Shown: positions 40,158 to 53,444 of the stretch, one piece after another
How the letters are laid out: each line of letters starts with the position of its first letter
Position numbering within the stretch: position 1 is the stretch's first letter
NCBI GenBank assembly: GCA_017443025.1
Contig: JAFSPG010000016.1
Span: 1-64,000 of the forward strand
Source: Bacteroidales bacterium
GTDB lineage: Bacteria > Bacteroidota > Bacteroidia > Bacteroidales > UBA932
DNA: 64,000 nucleotides
Reading direction: 5' to 3'
Notes under the pieces: model-generated
Told to the model about the DNA's origin: nothing
The model's input: the letters and a program-made list of their open reading frames with translations, nothing else
Databases searched by the model: none
Position numbers and translations under genes: made by a program

Positions 40158-40279
40158 CCTTCGCGAAGAAGGAAAAAGTTTTTTCGGACATTTGGGCATT
40201 CGCGAAAGGGAAAAATTTTCTCTCGGGCAGAAAAAATGCCCTCGAGAAATCTTTTTCTCTTTCTCCACCATCCCCACGC
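40158..40279 (+). repeat. Dispersed palindromic repeat A, copy 1 (diverged)
   Basis: Starts CCTTCGCGAAG and ends CCACCATCCCCACGC, with the hairpin core CTCGGGCA-GAAAAAA-TGCCCTCGAG. Copies 2 (48752-48899) and 3 (53021-53169, inverted) share the core. This copy contains the left half twice (TTCGCGAA at 40160 and again at 40199) and lacks the outer 65 bp present in the other two. No ORF. Confidence 0.8.
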
Positions 40280-40339
40280 ACTTGGCAGCGGGTGCGGGCG
40301 GACTGGACTTTCCCGTTTTGCCCGGGAAGCCTCGCGCCT

Positions 40340-40639: not shown

Positions 40640-41584
40640 ATGAATTCAAAACTTACACAACCGCAATTGCAAAAATTCCTTGATGAACTGGATGCATTGG
40701 AGCAGTATCGCGACTTGTCGGACGAAGAGAAAGAGAAGATTGCCAAAAGCATTTTATCTTCGAAGTACATGGACCTGCGCTGCGACTGGGCGTTTAAGTA
40801 CATCCTTCAGAACAAGGAGATCCTGACGATGCTTCTTCGCGACTTCATTTCAGAGGACATCGAGCGCGTAGAATACCTTCCGAATGAGATTGGCAGGGCC
40901 AGCGAAAGCGACAAGAACATTATCATGGATGTGATGTGCTACGCCAAGAGCGGACAGCGCTTCATCGTTGAGATGCAACGCCAGCATAAGACAAGTTTTA
41001 AAAACAGGATGTTGTACTACGGGGCATCCATGCTCCACGCTCAGCTTAACAGGGCCGCGGCATATTCGACACTTATGCCTGTGTATGTGATTTGCTTTAC
41101 CAACTTCAAACTCAAGCACGAGTCAGATCAGCTTGTGTACCGTTATATGCTGAAGGAACGCGACACTGGCGAATTGTACAACAATCTTCTTACCATCTGC
41201 TTCTGTGAATTGCCGCGCTTGAAAGCAAAGAAGATAGACGGTTTGAATGACATTGAGAGTTGGTTTTACATTTTGAAAAATATTCATACCTTTGCGGGAG
41301 AGCCGGGGGATTATGGCGAGAAATATAAGCCTGTTATGGAAGCTGCACTGATGAACCCACTCCCGGATGCAAACAAACTACAATACTTTAGAGCAATGGT
41401 ATCAGAAGAAGAAAGACGTGATATAGCGGAAGCCTGCTACGGAGATGGCTTTGACGATGGTATGGCTCAAGGTAAAGCTGAAGGTAAATCCGAAGGCCTG
41501 GAGCAAATGGCAAAGGCCCTTGTTCAAATGGGCATGTCCGACGCAGATATCCAGAAAGCTATAGAATTAGCCAAGAATTCATAG
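40640..41584 (+). CDS. Rpn-type PD-(D/E)XK nuclease family protein (transposase-like)
   Basis: 314 residues. The middle of the protein fits the PDDEXK_2 / RpnA-like family: MDLRCDWAFKYIL (family start), IIMDVMC with D97, then RFIVEMQRQ with E111 and Q113 as the D...ExQ variant of the nuclease core. The C-terminus is helical with a short DGMAQGKAEGKSEG repeat and a QMGMSDADIQKAIE helix. Relatives promote recombination and occur in many copies per Bacteroidales genome; they are annotated as putative transposases, but terminal inverted repeats are not seen here. AT-richer than secA. Single gene with a hairpin after it. Confidence 0.85.
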   Translation: MNSKLTQPQLQKFLDELDALEQYRDLSDEEKEKIAKSILSSKYMDLRCDWAFKYILQNKEILTMLLRDFISEDIERVEYLPNEIGRASESDKNIIMDVMCYAKSGQRFIVEMQRQHKTSFKNRMLYYGASMLHAQLNRAAAYSTLMPVYVICFTNFKLKHESDQLVYRYMLKERDTGELYNNLLTICFCELPRLKAKKIDGLNDIESWFYILKNIHTFAGEPGDYGEKYKPVMEAALMNPLPDANKLQYFRAMVSEEERRDIAEACYGDGFDDGMAQGKAEGKSEGLEQMAKALVQMGMSDADIQKAIELAKNS

Positions 41585-41704: not shown

Positions 41705-41712
41705 TATATTTG
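41705..41712 (+). promoter_or_regulatory. -7 box upstream of structured leader 1
   Basis: TATATTTG. Predicted transcript starts near 41719 with the hairpin GCTAC-AGAC-GTAGC (41717-41730); the next start codon is at 41985, leaving a leader of about 265 nt. Confidence 0.6.
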
Positions 41713-41718
41713 TGGAAG

Positions 41719-41940
41719 CTACAGACGTAGCATAATACATAGAAAGCGTTTAGCGATTCCGTACAACTGAATCTGGACAATTCTAGGAACAGGAATAGCG
41801 ATGCCGCTTGCTTTGGCTGTATGTTGAGCCATGCTCATAATATAGCAAAGTGTGGGTATGCTGTTCTTATTCGTTCCGAGGCCGTCCAGAGCCGAGTTGT
41901 AGAGTGAGAAACTATGGTGGCCCACACTTTCTTTTTTATC
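41719..41940 (+). ncRNA. Structured leader or small RNA, copy 1
   Basis: Stem 1 AGTGTGGG (41849-41856) with CCCACACT (41921-41928). Stem 2 TTCTTATTC (41864-41872) with GAGTGAGAA (41902-41910). Inner hairpin GGC...GCC (41880-41882 with 41891-41893) containing CCAGAGCC. Tail TTTCTTTTTT. A further hairpin lies just upstream, GCTGTAT...ATATAGC enclosing TGAG/CTCA. The same fold with compensatory changes occurs at 49235-49302. The stem 1 plus T-tract looks like a terminator, so the element may be an attenuator for the lipoprotein gene at 41985 or an independent RNA. Family not recognised. Confidence 0.55.
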
Positions 41941-41984
41941 CTTAAATCTCCCCCGGGTCACAGGGGAATAAAAGTTTTATCTAT

Positions 41985-42374
41985 ATGAAAAAACACATGT
42001 GTTTATTTGCCGTAATTCTATTATCGGCACTGTGCTCTGTAGGATGTTCATCAAAAGCTGATGATGATTATGAAAGCGGAATAGAAACTGCTTCGCTCAT
42101 TGGTACCTTTTGGACAGGGACTATAACAAATCGCCAGGCAAATGTCAGTTTTACAGAAAAAACGGTGGAAATAGAATTTCTTTATGCTAATCATATCCTT
42201 CTTAAAGGCACTTATTTGTATGAAGCTCCAAATATCTACTTTAATGCAGCTGATGATAGTTGGACAGTCTCGGCAACAGGTGTCGTAACTAAATCTATAA
42301 TGAAACTATCAGTAACTTTTAAGAATCAATTTGGTGACATTAAGTACTTCAATGAAACACTTATTAAGGATTAA
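41985..42374 (+). CDS. Small lipoprotein of unknown function
   Basis: 129 residues. Lipoprotein signal MKKHMCLFAVILLSALCSVGC with the modified cysteine at 21, then an acidic linker (KADDDYESG) and a small beta-rich domain (LIGTFWTGTITNRQANVSF to KYFNETLIKD) that reads like an eight-stranded lipocalin-like or DUF-type fold; I do not recognise the family. Codon use is AT-rich, unlike the flanking recA. The start is 56 nt downstream of the structured leader at 41849-41928. Confidence 0.65.
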   Translation: MKKHMCLFAVILLSALCSVGCSSKADDDYESGIETASLIGTFWTGTITNRQANVSFTEKTVEIEFLYANHILLKGTYLYEAPNIYFNAADDSWTVSATGVVTKSIMKLSVTFKNQFGDIKYFNETLIKD

Positions 42375-46968: not shown

Positions 46969-48354
46969 TCATCTGCTTTGCAGATAACTTGTCTGCTGCG
47001 GCTGAGGTCGCCCCTCGCCGCCAAGCCCTGCCATCTCCCTTCCTGTCATTTCGAAGCGAATCACATCCGAGGTGGTGGCCGACGGGGTAAAGACGTCTGG
47101 GGATAACTCGCGAAGCCGGGATTCAATGATATCTATGAAGAGGGGAGCGACACCATTCGATGTCGCCAGTACCCTGAAGTCTCGGAGAGCGTCCTTGACC
47201 TTTTTGATGTACTTCGCGGGATTCTTGATGTCGTTCTGGGCTGCGAAAGCCATGAGGTCGGAGGTGGTGATATCTTCATATTTTCCCCGGATGGAGAACT
47301 CGTGATGCTTCTCGGGCGCTGTGGCGTTCTTCAGAATGAAGCAGAGATCATAAGCAGGGGAGAGATGCCAGGACCCGTCTTTCTCCATGATGAAGGAGAA
47401 ATTCTTGGCATGGTCGTCAGTATTGTTGGAAAGGATGTTGAACACCATCCGCAGGTATAGCTCATTTAGCTCATCATGGGGGATGGAGATCTGCCTGCAT
47501 GTGGAAAAAAGGTCCTCATAGCAATATGCTTCAGGATTGACTGCGGCGAGGGTCTGGGTGAAAACTTTCTCCCCGTTGCGACGGTCAAACCGTTCGGTCA
47601 GGAAATGATGGATGCCTTCCACTTCGATCAGGCGTGATGGCATCATCGTGATTCCGGCACGGTCAGCTAGATCGTACCATGTCTGCTCTATCTCTGATTG
47701 GCAGAACTCAGGGGTATTGAACTTGAGGATATAATACTTCCTATCTTCCCTTACGGATGTCTGACCGGAGAATATGTTTCTCCCTCCATCCATAGCGATA
47801 ATTGCTTTCTTGAACCGTCCGCCAGCGGATGTGCCGACAGCCATCAGTGCTTTCTGTGTAAGCGTCTCTTCTGGGGAAATGATGGCATTCTCACGATCCT
47901 TCTCAATCTTCTTCGCTAATTCATATAGTTTCGGGATCATCAGCTTTTCATTGGCGCTGAAGGCTTCTTCGCTGCAAGGGGTAAATTCAAGAGCACCCAT
48001 GGCGCGGCTGCCTACGAAAGAAAGTTTAGCGAGAGGAGTCTTATCTTTCGCATGGTAATGATGGTCGGCGAACCACTGGTCGAAAAGGGTATTGCCCCAA
48101 TCATCGGGGAGGGAATCCGCAATGAAGGGCGGGAGCTTCTGGTATTTTACGGAATCCGTGTTGCCATAGATTGCGAAACGGGCTGTGGAACTTTTGGACG
48201 AAGCGGTCAGGGGCGCAATGTCCATCCCTGAAGCAAGATATTCGTGTGAAAAGAAAAAATAGGAGTTTCCCTTTGCCGGATTCCAGCAAAGTTGCCCAAT
48301 CTCCTGCCCCCAGAGCATGACACTCAGGCGGCCCTTGTCTATATTCCTAGCCAT
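46969..48354 (-). CDS. hipA: HipA family serine/threonine kinase toxin
   Basis: 461 residues. N-terminal couple-HipA domain, then the kinase: a Gly-rich loop in VGTSAGGRFKKA, lysine in KYYILKF, catalytic NTDDHAKNFSF and the metal motif LSPAYDL. HipA kinases inactivate glutamyl-tRNA synthetase or related targets and cause growth arrest. It overlaps the antitoxin gene by 8 bp. The last roughly 30 residues (VIRFEMTGREMAGLGG...) are coded by a fragment of dispersed repeat B (47043-47060), so the natural end was probably near SRLRELSPDV. Confidence 0.9.
   Translation of the reverse strand: MARNIDKGRLSVMLWGQEIGQLCWNPAKGNSYFFFSHEYLASGMDIAPLTASSKSSTARFAIYGNTDSVKYQKLPPFIADSLPDDWGNTLFDQWFADHHYHAKDKTPLAKLSFVGSRAMGALEFTPCSEEAFSANEKLMIPKLYELAKKIEKDRENAIISPEETLTQKALMAVGTSAGGRFKKAIIAMDGGRNIFSGQTSVREDRKYYILKFNTPEFCQSEIEQTWYDLADRAGITMMPSRLIEVEGIHHFLTERFDRRNGEKVFTQTLAAVNPEAYCYEDLFSTCRQISIPHDELNELYLRMVFNILSNNTDDHAKNFSFIMEKDGSWHLSPAYDLCFILKNATAPEKHHEFSIRGKYEDITTSDLMAFAAQNDIKNPAKYIKKVKDALRDFRVLATSNGVAPLFIDIIESRLRELSPDVFTPSATTSDVIRFEMTGREMAGLGGEGRPQPQQTSYLQSR
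47043..47060 (-). repeat. Fragment of dispersed repeat B inside hipA
   Basis: CTGTCATTTCGAAGCGAA matches the left end of repeat B (48959-49001). Read on the minus strand it gives the RFEMTG residues of the HipA tail. Confidence 0.5.
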
Positions 48355-48655
48355 TGTTCTTCCTCCTTACTCTTTGTTGCTGATGCTCAGAAGCCGTCAG
48401 GTAGGGATTTTCGGGCTGTTCCGGAATTAAATCATCGAAGCGGTCAAGAAGGCCAACCTGCCGGAGCAGGGCCATCAGGTTAGTGATGTTCATATTCGTA
48501 ATAGAGCCCGTCTCGAACTTATGTATAGTGGAAACGGAAACTCCGGCCGACACAGCTAAATCACCCTGGGAAAGATTCATCATTAATCTGTAATCCTTGA
48601 ACCTCAGTCCAAGCAGTTGCAGTATTTGAGTGTTTGAATACTTTTTTAAGTCCAT
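48347..48655 (-). CDS. hipB: HipB-like XRE antitoxin
   Basis: 102 residues. Helix-turn-helix LRFKDYRLMMNLSQGDLAVSAGVSVSTIHKFETGSI (about 16-52) of the Cro/C1 type, then a short tail (PENPYLTASEHQQQ) that would contact HipA. First gene of the hipBA unit. An inverted repeat GCATCA-8 nt-TGATGC (48659-48678) directly upstream, touching the -7 box, is the likely autoregulatory operator. Confidence 0.88.
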   Translation of the reverse strand: MDLKKYSNTQILQLLGLRFKDYRLMMNLSQGDLAVSAGVSVSTIHKFETGSITNMNITNLMALLRQVGLLDRFDDLIPEQPENPYLTASEHQQQRVRRKNNG

Positions 48656-48685: not shown

Positions 48686-48751
48686 ATAAGTTATAGATAA
48701 AATACAAAATTTATTATTAAACTTTATTATATTATATTTTAACTTGTAATT

Positions 48752-48899
48752 CAGGGTGGAAGTCCAAAAATATCGTTTTTGTGACGCGCAGGCCGCTTGG
48801 TCATGTTGCAGTTGGACCTTCGCGAAGCGGGAAAAAGTTTTCTCGGGCAGAAAAAATGCCCTCGAAACTCTTTTTCCCTCTTCTCCACCATTCCCACGC
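48752..48899 (+). repeat. Dispersed palindromic repeat A, copy 2
   Basis: 148 bp from CAGGGTGGAAGTCC to CCATTCCCACGC. It contains GTGACGCGCAGGC, CTTCGCGAAGCGGG and the hairpin core GGGAAAAAG...CTTTTTCCC around CTCGGGCA-GAAAAAA-TGCCCTCGA. Copy 3 (53021-53169) is its near-match in inverted orientation. Forms the left boundary of the AT-rich island. Confidence 0.85.
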
Positions 48900-49053: not shown

Positions 49054-49061
49054 TACATTTG
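49054..49061 (+). promoter_or_regulatory. -7 box upstream of structured leader 2
   Basis: TACATTTG, followed by the hairpin GCAGGGG...CCCCCTGC (49066-49100). Confidence 0.6.
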
Positions 49062-49067
49062 CAATTG

Positions 49068-49310
49068 CAGGGGCAGTGTACTCCAACGAGTTACCCCCTG
49101 CGGACATATTTAGATGAAAGTGTTTTCGTCTAATCCTTGCAGGAAATCTGGTAAATTTCAAGTGTTCAGGGATAGGCAATTACATTCATCACCTAGTCTG
49201 ATATTTAGTGCCATTCGGCGCCGATATCATACAGGTGTGGAGTGTTGTTTATTTGAACACGGCTTACCAGAGCCTCCTGCAGATAAACGAAATGCTCCAC
49301 ACTTTCTTTA
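49068..49310 (+). ncRNA. Structured leader or small RNA, copy 2
   Basis: Stem 1 GTGTGGAG (49235-49242) with CTCCACAC (49295-49302). Stem 2 GTTTATTTG (49247-49255) with CAGATAAAC (49280-49288). Inner hairpin GGCT/AGCC (49261-49264 with 49271-49274) containing CCAGAGCC. Tail TTTCTTTA. Upstream hairpins: GCAGGGG/CCCCTGC, TTAGATGAAA/TTTTCGTCTAA and TGATAT/ATATCA. The layout equals copy 1 (41849-41928), with five of nine stem 2 pairs exchanged in a compensating way. It ends 52 nt before the start of the small gene at 49355. Family unknown. Confidence 0.55.
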
Positions 49311-49354
49311 TACCCACCACCCTCAGGAGCAGGGGTGCTATACAGAACAATGTT

Positions 49355-49690
49355 ATGCCACGAGTAATTGACCCCGCCAGAATCATTAAAGCCTTTTTAA
49401 CTCAAAATGGTTATAAACCAGAAGATCCGGAAACCAGTAATGGGATAGTACTAGCGGCCTCTGCCTTGCTAAATGAATTGGAAGAAATTGAGGATATGGA
49501 ACGTGAAGGTTATAGCTGGTCTCAGGATTATTCATCAAAAAGCAAACTTGAAATTATTGTTGACGTAGTTAATCAGGTTAGGTATGATATAGGGTTTGAT
49601 AATGACGCGCCAGAGCTCATAAAACGCGACATAATTTCAAAATGCGAATACCTTGAGAGTAATAACATAAGCTACCACTTTATCAAATAG
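49355..49690 (+). CDS. Small protein of unknown function downstream of leader 2
   Basis: 111 residues from ATG 49355 (MPRVIDPARI). An upstream in-frame extension would run through the structured RNA and is rejected. Mostly helical, acidic (LLNELEEIEDMEREG), with YSWSQDYSSKSKLEIIVDVVNQVRYDIGFD in the middle. No signal peptide or membrane helix. No family recognised. AT-rich codon use like the next two genes. 47 nt before the Ig-repeat lipoprotein gene, so possibly co-transcribed. Confidence 0.6.
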   Translation: MPRVIDPARIIKAFLTQNGYKPEDPETSNGIVLAASALLNELEEIEDMEREGYSWSQDYSSKSKLEIIVDVVNQVRYDIGFDNDAPELIKRDIISKCEYLESNNISYHFIK

Positions 49691-49737: not shown

Positions 49738-52371
49738 ATGATGAGAAAGTTATATTTGTTAAGCATCTTAATTGTGTTATTTTGTTCTTGCGGGAAAGAT
49801 CAGGGAGAAGAGGAGAAACCTGAAATCGCTGTTACATCAATTACTCTCAGCCAGCCATCAGTTGATATCATTGAGGGTGAGATCATACAGCTAACAGTTA
49901 CGATTTTGCCATCCAATGCTTCAGATAAGACCGTCATCTGGAAATCCAGTAATGTGACTGTCGCTTCAGTTGACGAGAATGGCCATGTGAAGGCGATGAA
50001 AGTTGGACAGGCAATAATCACAGCAAAGGCGGGGAATAAAACCGCAGAATGCACAGTAACGGTTTCCCCTAAACGGATTGATGTGACGATGTTGTTGTTA
50101 AACAAGACAGAACTATCAATGATAGTCGGCGAAGAATATCCGTTGGTGGCGACTATCGTCCCGGAAAATGCTACAGAGCGTACTATCCAATGGAGTACAT
50201 CGGCCCCTGAGATCGCTACGGTTGATAACGGGAAAGTAACGGCAGTTAAAGAAGGTTTCGCAAAGATAGTTGCCTATGTTGATGGTAAAACGGCAGAATG
50301 CAGTGTTACCATTGATTATATTCCTGTACAAAGCATCACTCTTGCCCCGTCTGACCTCACTCTATATGAGGGAGAGGAGCATACTCTTTCAGCCACAATT
50401 ACACCAGAGAATGCCACATACCAAAGTGTTCTATGGAGTACAACTGACGATAAGATAGCTAACGTCGAAAACGGGAAAGTCGTGGCAATAAAAAAGGGCT
50501 CTGCAAAAATCAAGGGTGAGGCAAATGGCAAGACTGCGGAATGCCAGGTAGAGGTTTTGTCATCCGTGGCTAACATTTCTCTTGACAAGAATGAACTAGG
50601 TATGAAGGTCGGCGATACGCAAACGCTGAATGCAGTCATAACGCCCGAAGATGCCACCCTCCGAGAAAGCCTGGTTTGGGCTTCTTCTGATGAAAATGTA
50701 GTTATTGTCGATCAAAGCGGTAAGGTTGATGCCATTAAAGAGGGGACCGCTACAGTTTCCGTAAGTGTTGAAGGAAAGAAAGCAGAATGTGTCATAACTG
50801 TTGACTACGTACACGTATCATCAATCGATCTAAGTCAGACAGAAGCGACCCTCTTCATTGGAGATGCTCTAACACTTACGGCGACTCTTAACCCGAGTAA
50901 TGTAACGTACAATACTATTGAATGGACGTCATCCGATGAAAATGTAGTTGTCGTATCCGGAAACGGACAAGTAAGTGCAGTCGGCAAAGGCTCAGCTATA
51001 GTCTCGGCCAAGTCTGACGGGAAAGAAGCATCATGCTCCTTTACTGTATTAGTTCCTCTTACTGGTTTATCCTTCGACCAGAACAGTTTAACATTATCAA
51101 ATGGGAATACTACTACACTATCAGTTGTCAAAACACCGGCAGATGCCAGCATTAAGGGTGAAATAGTCTGGAACTCCTCGAATCCTTCTGTTGCAACAGT
51201 TTCTCAGGAAGGCGTGATTTCGGCCATAAATAAAGGTACTACGGATATTACTGCAACTGCAGATGGATTCACGGCCACCTGCACAATAAATGTGATAATT
51301 CCAGTGAATTCAGTATCTCTGAATAAAACAGAGCTTTCCCTTGCGGAGGGTTACTCTGAAACGATCACAGCTACAGTTTTACCAGATGATGCTTCGGATA
51401 AAACTGTGACATGGACTTCGAGTGACCAGTCTGTAGCCACTGTTGAAGACGGTAAGATCTGCGCCATAAAAGAAGGTGAAACTACCATTACCGCAAGGGC
51501 TGGAGAAATAGCTGCCACCTGCAAGGTCACAGTAACAAAGAAAATTGATGTTGCCATGATCATGCTTGACAACACCCAACTATCCATGAATTGGTGTGAT
51601 GAGAAAAAACTAACGGCAACTATAGTCCCCGCAAATGCTACTGAACAAAACATTCAGTGGAGTACTTCAAACCCTAATGTTGCAACGGTGGAGAATGGCT
51701 TGATTAGTGCCGTCTGGGAAGGGTCAACCACCATAGTAGCATACATAGATGGGAAAACCGCTCAATGTGCAGTGGAAATATATGTTTCTTTCCCTGAATA
51801 TGTTGACCTCGGTTTGTCAGTAAAATGGGCAACACGAAATCTCGGCGCATCTCTCCCTCCCGATTACGGCGATTATTACGCTTGGGGAGAAATTGAGACC
51901 AAGGGTAATTATTCAGATGAGACTTATAAGTGGGGAAGTTGGAGCAACGTTACCAAATATAATAATGATTCTTATTATGGAATAGTTGATAATAAGACGG
52001 TGTTGGAAGCTGAGGATGATGTTGCCCATGTCAAACTCGGTGGGAATTGGAGAATGCCCACGAAGAGTGAGTTCGATGAATTGATAACAACAAGGAATAA
52101 TTCAAATTATAAATGGGAATGGAAGCAGATAAACGGTCACAATGGTTGGATGATTAAATACCTAGTAAATGGTCAGAGCATTTTTTTACCTGCTACTGGC
52201 GAGTGGTATCACACATCACTTCTTTGGGTCGGTACCGACGGTATCTACTGGTCTTCTTCCCTCCATACGGGCGGGGCTGCTTGGAATGCAGTCTTCGGTT
52301 CGGAGGGCTCGCACACTACTTCTCGTGGCCGCTGCTTCGGAGAATCCGTCCGTCCAGTCTTGGATAATTAA
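49738..52371 (+). CDS. Ig-like (Big_2) repeat surface lipoprotein with lectin-like C-terminus
   Basis: 877 residues. Lipoprotein signal ending LFCSCGK. Eight Big_2 domains of about 82 residues follow, each with a motif like SITLS...L..G....L.ATI.P..A....V.W.SS...VA.V..G.V.A...G.A.I.A...GKTA.C.V.V. From about residue 685 comes a C-terminal domain of the FISUMP/DUF1566 C-type-lectin-like kind (YVDLGLSVKWATRNLGA, WGEIE, GGNWRMPTKSEFDEL, SIFLPATGEW, YWSSS, SVRPV). The stalk would hold the lectin-like tip off the cell surface. The last roughly 170 nt are adenine-poor and GC-rich compared with the rest of the gene, as in targets of diversity-generating retroelements. No reverse transcriptase or template repeat is in the window. 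Confidence 0.85.
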   Translation: MMRKLYLLSILIVLFCSCGKDQGEEEKPEIAVTSITLSQPSVDIIEGEIIQLTVTILPSNASDKTVIWKSSNVTVASVDENGHVKAMKVGQAIITAKAGNKTAECTVTVSPKRIDVTMLLLNKTELSMIVGEEYPLVATIVPENATERTIQWSTSAPEIATVDNGKVTAVKEGFAKIVAYVDGKTAECSVTIDYIPVQSITLAPSDLTLYEGEEHTLSATITPENATYQSVLWSTTDDKIANVENGKVVAIKKGSAKIKGEANGKTAECQVEVLSSVANISLDKNELGMKVGDTQTLNAVITPEDATLRESLVWASSDENVVIVDQSGKVDAIKEGTATVSVSVEGKKAECVITVDYVHVSSIDLSQTEATLFIGDALTLTATLNPSNVTYNTIEWTSSDENVVVVSGNGQVSAVGKGSAIVSAKSDGKEASCSFTVLVPLTGLSFDQNSLTLSNGNTTTLSVVKTPADASIKGEIVWNSSNPSVATVSQEGVISAINKGTTDITATADGFTATCTINVIIPVNSVSLNKTELSLAEGYSETITATVLPDDASDKTVTWTSSDQSVATVEDGKICAIKEGETTITARAGEIAATCKVTVTKKIDVAMIMLDNTQLSMNWCDEKKLTATIVPANATEQNIQWSTSNPNVATVENGLISAVWEGSTTIVAYIDGKTAQCAVEIYVSFPEYVDLGLSVKWATRNLGASLPPDYGDYYAWGEIETKGNYSDETYKWGSWSNVTKYNNDSYYGIVDNKTVLEAEDDVAHVKLGGNWRMPTKSEFDELITTRNNSNYKWEWKQINGHNGWMIKYLVNGQSIFLPATGEWYHTSLLWVGTDGIYWSSSLHTGGAAWNAVFGSEGSHTTSRGRCFGESVRPVLDN

Positions 52372-53009: not shown

Positions 53010-53020
53010 GGGGATGGAGT

Positions 53021-53169
53021 GCGTGGGGATGGTGGAGAAGCGGGGAAAAGAGTTTCGAGGGCATTTTTTTCTGCCCGAGAAAACTTTTTCCCGCTTCGCG
53101 AAGGGCTATCTGCGTGAGGACCAAGCCGCCTGCGCGTCACAAAATCGAGGTTTTTGGACGCCGACCCTG
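53021..53169 (-). repeat. Dispersed palindromic repeat A, copy 3 (inverted)
   Basis: 149 bp, the reverse complement of copy 2 with scattered substitutions; same hairpin core and same outer CAGGGT...GTCCAAAAA end. A further fragment with CTGCGCGACACAAA lies at 53231-53244. Between here and recX (53170-53440) I see no gene or other recognisable element. Confidence 0.85.
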
Positions 53170-53444
53170 AAAAATACCCCGGTGCGCGACCGTTCTTGGC
53201 CGATTATGGGCTCCGACCCCTGCTGAAATCTACCTGCGCGACACAAACGCCGCCAAAACGGACGCGCAAGACTGGCGATGCGTCCAAATTTGTCAGTACC
53301 ACAAACCTTTCTCTTCGACTTGGGACTAGACATATGCTACACCATGCCGAAGGCTATCGCCATACCCGACGTGGAGAAGCGGCATCGCAAAGCAAAGCGT
53401 CTGGCCGGGCAGGAGGGTTGTTTGTTTTTCAGAAGGATATTCGC

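Follow-up and report, generated by a model that had tools for sequence, protein, structure and literature searches.

The window analysed here, a 64,000-nt stretch of DNA, contains two units of ~220 nt (copy 1) and ~250 nt (copy 2), in each of which a TAnnTTTG box, a 5' hairpin, two hairpin domains, and a GC-rich stem with a U-tract succeed one another. In full, the 5' to 3' order is a P1 hairpin; P2, which holds the 5' strand of P7 (P7a), HP1 with its loop K1, and the 5' strand of PK1 (PK1a); a strand designated AT; the P4 hairpin; T1; P6, which holds PK1b, HP2 with its loop K2, and P7b; T2; the U-tract; the D hairpin; and a start codon. Both units and their downstream genes lie on the plus strand, and the RNA 5' ends would fall at about 41715 and 49064.

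Copy 1 begins with a -7 promoter box, TATATTTG, at 41705-41712, followed by a 5' hairpin (GCTAC-AGAC-GTAGC, 41718-41731) evident from the sequence and the minimum free energy (MFE) fold. The span matched by the covariance models described below is 41741-41935 (R1, 170.9 bits, E = 5.5e-47; R2, 140.9 bits), although copy 1 belonged to the seed of both models. Within it, P2 is formed by 41756-41760 and 41792-41796, and HP1 (41769-41783) exposes the K1 loop TCTGGAC (41772-41778) with the P7 5' strand TACAACT directly upstream; the PK1 5' strand GGAAC (41786-41790) has its partner at 41873-41877. The expected antiterminator strand AT, assigned by position to 41805-41814, is imperfect here. It is followed by the P4 hairpin (41815-41846; helices 5-6 of the 100-copy alignment), the 5' arm of the terminator stem, T1 (41850-41857), and P6 (41866-41872 with 41902-41908), which surrounds HP2, GGCCGTCCAGAGCC (41880-41893, with loop K2), and then the P7 3' strand AGTTGTA. 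The 3' arm T2 (41919-41927) and the U-tract together read TTTCTTTTTT (41919-41937), and the D hairpin (41950-41966) carries a loop, GGGTCAC (41955-41961), that is complementary to T2. The gene downstream (41985-42374) encodes a 129-aa protein that is lipoprotein-like by eye and has no match in Pfam at E<=0.01 or in NCBIfam or PADLOC at E<=1e-5.

The corresponding features of copy 2 are a -7 box, TACATTTG, at 49054-49061, a 5' hairpin at 49067-49101 (sequence and MFE fold), and a model span of 49115-49310. HP1, GAAATCTGGTAAATTTC (49143-49159), has the K1 loop TCTGGTA, which pairs with TACCAGA at 49265-49271, and the PK1 5' strand GTGTTCA (49162-49168) pairs with TGAACAC at 49254-49260. Downstream of T1 (49235-49242), P6 (49248-49287; strands 49248-49255 and 49280-49287) encloses the PK1 3' strand, HP2 (49261-49274), and the P7 3' strand. 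T2 (49293-49302) and the U-tract read TTTCTTTAT (49293-49311), the loop of the D hairpin (49318-49337), GGAGCA at 49326-49331, is complementary to the TGCTCC of T2, and the 111-aa product of the downstream gene (49355-49690) likewise matches no Pfam family at E<=0.01, in keeping with an earlier description of both genes as being of unknown function. Folding of the two window copies gave MFE z-scores of -4.7 and -8.2, and none of 200 shuffles of either copy folded as well. The opposite strand of copy 1 (41734-41932, minus) also matches R1 weakly (27.3 bits), which makes the element quasi-palindromic.

Several other features lie nearby. A PDDEXK_2 (PD-(D/E)XK family transposase-like) protein is encoded just upstream of copy 1 (40640-41584), a toxin-antitoxin-type pair of HipA and a HipB-like HTH protein lies directly upstream of copy 2 (46969-48655, minus), and an 877-aa Big_2-repeat protein is encoded downstream of copy 2 (49738-52371), with a weak C-terminal Lcl_C match below the family cut-off and an end that is FISUMP-like by eye. 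The window also contains three occurrences of a ~90-150 bp intergenic repeat (40189-40282, 48750-48899, and 53018-53171; 74-94% alike), one of them inverted relative to the other two.

The initial annotation had described a shorter element, two stretches of ~80 nt with an outer stem, an inner stem, a GGC/GCC hairpin containing CCAGAGCC, and a TTTCTTT tail. Both copies, their common layout, and each of these parts are present in the sequence, the outer stem being T1 paired with T2. The ~80-nt stretch was nevertheless rejected as a complete unit: homology extends over ~200 nt, and the stretch constitutes the 3' third of an RNA about threefold its length. The -7 boxes that had been noted are real, but they stand 137 and 174 nt upstream of those stretches, where the full-length RNA begins. 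A distance of 52-56 nt to the start codon had been given for the pair; T2 ends 52 nt before 49355, as stated, and 57 nt before 41985.

The extent of the element was indicated by a 301-nt blastn query spanning copy 1, which identified a third copy in the same genome (two pieces, ~200 nt, E = 6.8e-8 and 0.067) and relatives at E<=2.4e-5 in 3 of 60 other genomes (G011, G021, and G027), the common unit running from the TAnnTTTG box through the short 5' hairpin to the U-tract. The seed of a covariance model, R1, comprised six copies (copy 1, a copy on contig C16 of the same genome, one from G021, two from G027, and one from G011) and excluded copy 2. R1 detected copy 2 within the window at 59.4 bits (E = 1.9e-15), which places the likeness of the two copies beyond chance. 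A second model, R2, was made from 45 diverse copies. Matches to R1 at E<=0.01 were found in 182 of 400 genomes of the same genus (84 of the 150 good ones) and, across the order, in 50 of 295 genomes representing 37 of 183 genera, while R2 at E<=0.001 matched 36 of 395 genomes and 16 of 171 genera of the phylum; the genus, order, and phylum counts include the window's own genome, and the match numbers from these scans are lower bounds, with 6-8 candidates scored per genome.

A DNA pattern derived from the 3' part of the element occurred in at least 117 stretches of genome contigs. Among the 80 pattern matches listed, the carriers included Bacteroides xylanisolvens XB1A, B. heparinolyticus, Phocaeicola coprocola, several Alistipes, Rikenella, Tidjanibacter, Muribaculaceae, Prevotellaceae, and two Fibrobacter metagenome-assembled genomes (MAGs). 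When 21 such loci (20 genomic and one from a viral contig) were re-scored with R1, 20 matched at E<=2e-7 and one at 0.071. Nine carrier genomes, selected for having the pattern, hold 5 to 36 matches each at E<=0.01 with up to 150 candidates scored, among them an Alistipes senegalensis MAG (36 matches) and XB1A (12 matches).

The secondary structure is supported by compensatory variation; the model span is 156-222 nt in 92 non-redundant copies. In an alignment of 100 copies to R2, considering nested pairs and K, 94.0% of pair cells form, vs 78.0% in shuffles; two-sided changes occur in 39 of 45 pairs; and the covariation score is 0.443, compared with 0.182 for shuffled and at most 0.070 for slid controls. 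K1:K2 is paired in 98.0% of its cells and T1:T2 in 95.5%. The alignment shares many of the 45 training sequences of R2, and the nested pairs lean towards R2 because the alignment was made to it; the K pairs are absent from the model. Since the variable strands do not align by column, they were evaluated by duplex energy, comparing own with swapped partners in the 92 non-redundant copies with 2000 shuffles within groups A, B, and C, which were set by R1 score rank and source. Own partners were favored for P7 (z = -28.6), PK1 (-23.7), K (-15.4), P6 (-12.7), P2 (-10.5), T2:D (-9.8), T1:T2 (-7.7), and AT:T1 (-5.6), with 0 of 2000 shuffles reaching the observed value in each case. Nine unrelated strand pairs used as controls gave z-scores between -1.7 and +2.2 (T1-D 0.4, X-D -1.7, HP1loop-Y 1.6, HP2loop-D 0.6, T2-X 2.2, P2a-P6a 0.5, P2b-P6b -0.3, P7a-Y 1.7, and X-P7b 0.4); without grouping, the X-D control reached -2.7. 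P7, D, and AT were initially spotted by eye, and the copies that had suggested them were among those tested. The strand that pairs best in PK1 is different in each of the 92 copies, yet a pairing score of at least 6 is kept in 86 of them.

MFE prediction gives a single long rod in which the HP1 loop pairs with the HP2 loop in 90 of 92 folds. The full rod was not adopted as the selected fold: P7, K, and PK1 are supported, whereas the rod junction shows no own-partner signal for P2b:P6a (z = -1.1), with P2a:P6b at -4.1. The order of the strands implies two four-way junctions, one joining P2, P7, P6, and PK1 and the other joining P7, HP1, PK1, and HP2, with the two loops in contact; this architecture is a reading of the pairing list as opposed to a three-dimensional result. 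A helix between P1 and the AT region (AGCGUU:AACGCU) was dropped by eye, being broken in at least two of six sequences and replaceable by a local hairpin.

The contrast between a constrained framework and variable helices is sharpest in six paralogues of one Alistipes MAG (L388, L394, L396, L397, L398, and L400), which share one nearly fixed scaffold. Variable columns number 12 of 126 outside P7, K, and PK1, vs 29 of 43 inside them, with segment borders set after the alignment had been viewed. P7 pairs best with its own partner in each paralogue except L388 and L400, the P7 strands of which are interchangeable. Either the scaffold is strongly constrained while the P7, K, and PK1 helices drift freely, or the helices diversify for specificity. 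A second common hairpin can be seen by eye downstream of these same-scaffold paralogues.

Signals expected at the two ends of a short transcript frame the conserved structure. A TAnnTTTG box was present within 110 nt upstream of 38 of 38 (A), 26 of 28 (B), and 21 of 26 (C) non-redundant copies, or 85 of 92 overall, where 3.5, 2.5, and 2.4, respectively, were expected by chance. At the other end, the GC-rich T1:T2 stem is followed directly by a U-tract, as in an intrinsic terminator: T occupies positions 1-7 after T2 in 99, 99, 95, 37, 96, 80, and 82% of the 92 copies, and 78 of these have at least six T among the eight nucleotides after T2.

Most copies precede a gene. A same-strand open reading frame (ORF) of at least 35 aa starts within 300 nt downstream in 117 of 121 copies, at a median of 49 nt past the model end. 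Considering the 51 copies with at least 1200 nt on both sides (70 copies with less flank were left out), an ORF of at least 100 aa starts within 300 nt downstream of 46, and 13 have a divergent one upstream. A first version of this control had given 16 divergent vs 106 same-strand ORFs among 121 copies; the divergent figure is too low because many loci had only ~400 nt upstream. The first downstream genes are very diverse and do not form the group of similar small genes that had been anticipated: the 103 proteins considered (of 117 first ORFs, 14 being left out by hand) fall into 75 Pfam families, led by zinc ribbon (7), LRR (5), and FHA (5), with other types including LRR/BspA, Big_2, DUF4988, FtsK/EssC-like, CsgG, and trypsin-like proteins and, as single defence-type proteins, SspB and DrmD. 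No shared pathway was evident among these 103 genes in Pfam, NCBIfam, and PADLOC, and no single metabolic theme of the kind associated with riboswitches, although a signal-type riboswitch would not need one. A role confined to defence was rejected, no PADLOC family having matched more than two of the 103.

Taken as sequence, these features suggest that each copy is probably a promoter-proximal, cis-acting transcription attenuator with a riboswitch-like layout, residing in the 5' leader of the next gene and serving as an on/off switch. In the proposed compact fold, with P2 and P6 formed, T1 would pair with T2 atop P6, and RNA polymerase would stop at the U-tract, leaving the gene off. In the alternative fold, T1 would pair with the upstream strand AT, no terminator would form, and the gene would be transcribed; the D loop would then hold T2 on the read-through RNA and keep the terminator stem from re-forming. 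Which fold is taken presumably depends on an effector of the HP1/HP2/P7/PK1 core, be it a metabolite, a protein, or an RNA. Lying beyond the stop point, D is synthesized too late to decide termination and is therefore read as a latch on read-through RNA.

The energetics of the competing pairings are compatible with such a switch to different degrees. Mean energies of T1:T2 and AT:T1 are -12.4 and -11.7 kcal/mol in group A and -12.8 and -12.1 kcal/mol in group C, or ~0.7 kcal/mol apart, while in group B they are -14.3 and -10.1 kcal/mol, the terminator being favored by a median of 4.7 kcal/mol. AT:T1 is the weakest of the tested pairings. Contiguous AT:T1 pairs with a score of at least 5 occur in 82 of 92 copies, vs 84% with strands of other copies, and those with a score of at least 7 in 48 of 92, vs 29%. 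The best match to T1 need not be the AT strand because the tested window spans P4, and in copy 1 it falls in the P4 loop; an antiterminator hairpin is clear by eye in many group C copies and weak in group B and copy 1. AT:T1 and T2:D combined outweigh T1:T2 in all copies of A and B and in 88% of C, which is weak evidence because two helices are set against one. D matches T2 at a contiguous score of at least 5.5 in 70 of 92 copies, compared with 30% when D is swapped, and 22 of 92 fall below this threshold.

The location of D raises the alternative that control is mainly translational, such that the T1:T2/T2:D rearrangement opens or closes the start codon and the U-tract is a mere unstructured spacer. 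The distance from the end of D to the ATG has a median of 21 nt, a stem of the D flanks is present in 53 of 70 copies where 22.4 would be expected, and T2:D is specific for its own partner. This alternative appears unlikely, as the U-tract is conserved exactly where a terminator needs one and the D hairpin leaves the ATG uncovered in both window copies.

A second alternative, which we regard as rather improbable, is that the terminated RNA of ~200 nt is a trans-acting small RNA and that constant leakage past its end accounts for transcription of the downstream gene. The RNA has its own promoter and its own end. Furthermore, in the Alistipes MAG with 36 matches (33 fetched and 32 counted, L387 being left out with an ORF 49 nt downstream), a same-strand ORF of at least 60 aa within 120 nt is absent in 6 of the 32 counted copies, and five of these belong to the six same-scaffold paralogues, so this subfamily, and hence some copies of the element, may act alone. 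The paralogues also differ in their matched strands, as would be expected of partners that must not cross-pair. Set against this, most copies examined lie ~49 nt before an ORF, and D and its pairing with T2 connect the RNA with the leader that follows.

The diversity of the downstream genes, which are accessory, often encode surface proteins, and are sometimes related to defence, would also suit a sensorless element that constitutively confers processive antitermination or mRNA stability on long accessory operons. This is very unlikely, since a conserved terminator with candidate competing strands suggests a decision. A mobile palindromic repeat (MITE-like) lacking any regulatory role would account for the up to 36 matches in one genome, the patchy distribution among genomes of the same genus, and the weak score of the opposite strand of copy 1, but it is a scarcely plausible explanation for an element whose PK1 strand changes in every copy while its pairing is maintained, whose orientation and spacing relative to promoter and ORF are regular, and whose structure is found across the phylum. 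Finally, a leader-peptide attenuator, suggested by the terminator within the leader, can be given almost no weight, since ORFs of at least eight codons starting before T1 occur in 62 of 92 copies, below the 73.0 expected from shuffles, and the 92 copies show no excess of leader ORFs that would indicate a short translated one.

None of the 4227 families of Rfam 15 matched the RNA at the family gathering score, either within the window or at 59 additional loci; the window's only matches at that level are three tRNAs. At E<=10, copy 1 had two opposite-strand matches far below gathering (E = 5.9 and 9.3) and copy 2 had none. Intrinsic-terminator riboswitches and attenuators are characterized by a leader position, their own promoter, a terminator stem with a U-tract, and a competing antiterminator strand. 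The leader RNA shares this position, promoter, and terminator with U-tract and has, with weaker support, a candidate competing strand; it differs from known attenuators in its two-domain core with mutually complementary loops, in the additional downstream element D, and in matching no Rfam family at gathering score. The cobalamin riboswitch is ~200 nt in length and uses a kissing loop to join its receptor and regulatory domains. The leader RNA resembles it in size and in using a long-range interaction between loops that is associated with gene control; here, however, the contact is made between hairpins of the core, the partner of the D loop is a strand and not a loop, and the window copies have no cobalamin riboswitch match in Rfam even at E<=10. 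A T-box reading was considered by eye and not taken up.

Other RNAs of Bacteroidota occur close to individual copies. DUF805 RNA (RF03081), which is also a cis-regulatory RNA of Bacteroidota, lies 42 nt downstream of a copy in locus L150, and a similar sequence follows a copy in L156 by eye. It is a separate element, with no match in the window, and a scan of 30 DUF805 loci with R2 gave same-strand matches upstream of the DUF805 RNA at two of them, one being L150 itself. B. xylanisolvens locus L411 (832-905, minus, and 1405-1609, plus) has matches to the Bacteroides sRNAs rteR (RF04181) and BTnc005 (RF04178) near a copy of the leader RNA; they occupy other positions than the latter, and R2 does not match them there.

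In the open literature searched, including passages of PMC9723704, PMC8040213, and PMC7366714, no recognizable description of the leader RNA was found. The candidate motifs HMP2_1032 and HMP2_4205 of Bacteroidetes are described as palindromic predicted terminators of 106 and 132 bp near TonB and TPR genes, with no function given in the text (PMC8040213). Judged by that description, they could equally be fragments of the leader RNA or separate from the leader RNA, a plasmid relative of which, identified by blastn in B. finegoldii, stands ~200 nt before a gene annotated as TonB. Similarly, the article text on Flavobacterium psychrophilum reports 64 structured 5' transcribed regions, some conserved with no Rfam matches (PMC9723704); as described there, no such family is named, and an instance of the leader RNA may be included.

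Taken together, the many homologues in genus, order, and phylum, covariation far above shuffled, slid, and partner-swapped controls, and the absence of an Rfam family over the RNA bear out the initial proposal of a conserved cis-regulatory or small RNA of undescribed type. The structured leader RNA family is real, spread over the phylum, outside Rfam as tested, and marked by the typical features of a transcription attenuator. As such, it would belong to a known kind, the leader attenuator, although we know of no prior description of its architecture.

Bacteroidota dominate the gut, and to our knowledge little has been described of their RNA-based regulation. A broader and more tentative proposal is that the family might constitute a phylum-wide class of sensory RNA, also found in Fibrobacter MAGs, whose double four-way-junction-like core flips between terminating and reading-through states, so as to act as a global regulator of surface, secretion, and defence genes. 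In this proposal, the RNAs may also recognize one another or partners in trans, since within a nearly fixed scaffold each paralogue has matched loop strands that are almost its own. Given its presence in 37 of 183 genera of the order and the 5-36 matches in nine genomes, the structured leader would rank among the larger unassigned cis-regulatory RNA families, and one kind of switch would link surface lipoproteins, BspA repeats, type VII-like genes, and single defence-type genes. The matched helices that differ among paralogues pose a separate puzzle for RNA evolution.

Several individual occurrences bear on this distribution. Two contigs titled as Fibrobacter MAGs (L195 and L204) carry copies, with nine matches in each genome, which reflects either spread beyond Bacteroidota or mixed bins. 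One viral contig was counted with one DNA pattern, and a B. xylanisolvens copy used as query matched one plasmid and two phage records. Positions 1849-2063 of MT838511.1, a 5-kb unannotated fecal phage record, are 99.5% identical to the B. xylanisolvens RNA, indicative of either phage carriage or host DNA within the record. The window's own genome contains a fourth, strongly diverged copy (G000:C12:15139-15342, equivalent to L305 3140-3343, minus; R2, 47.2 bits), in which the T1 and T2 arms seem, by eye, to have changed in a matched fashion.
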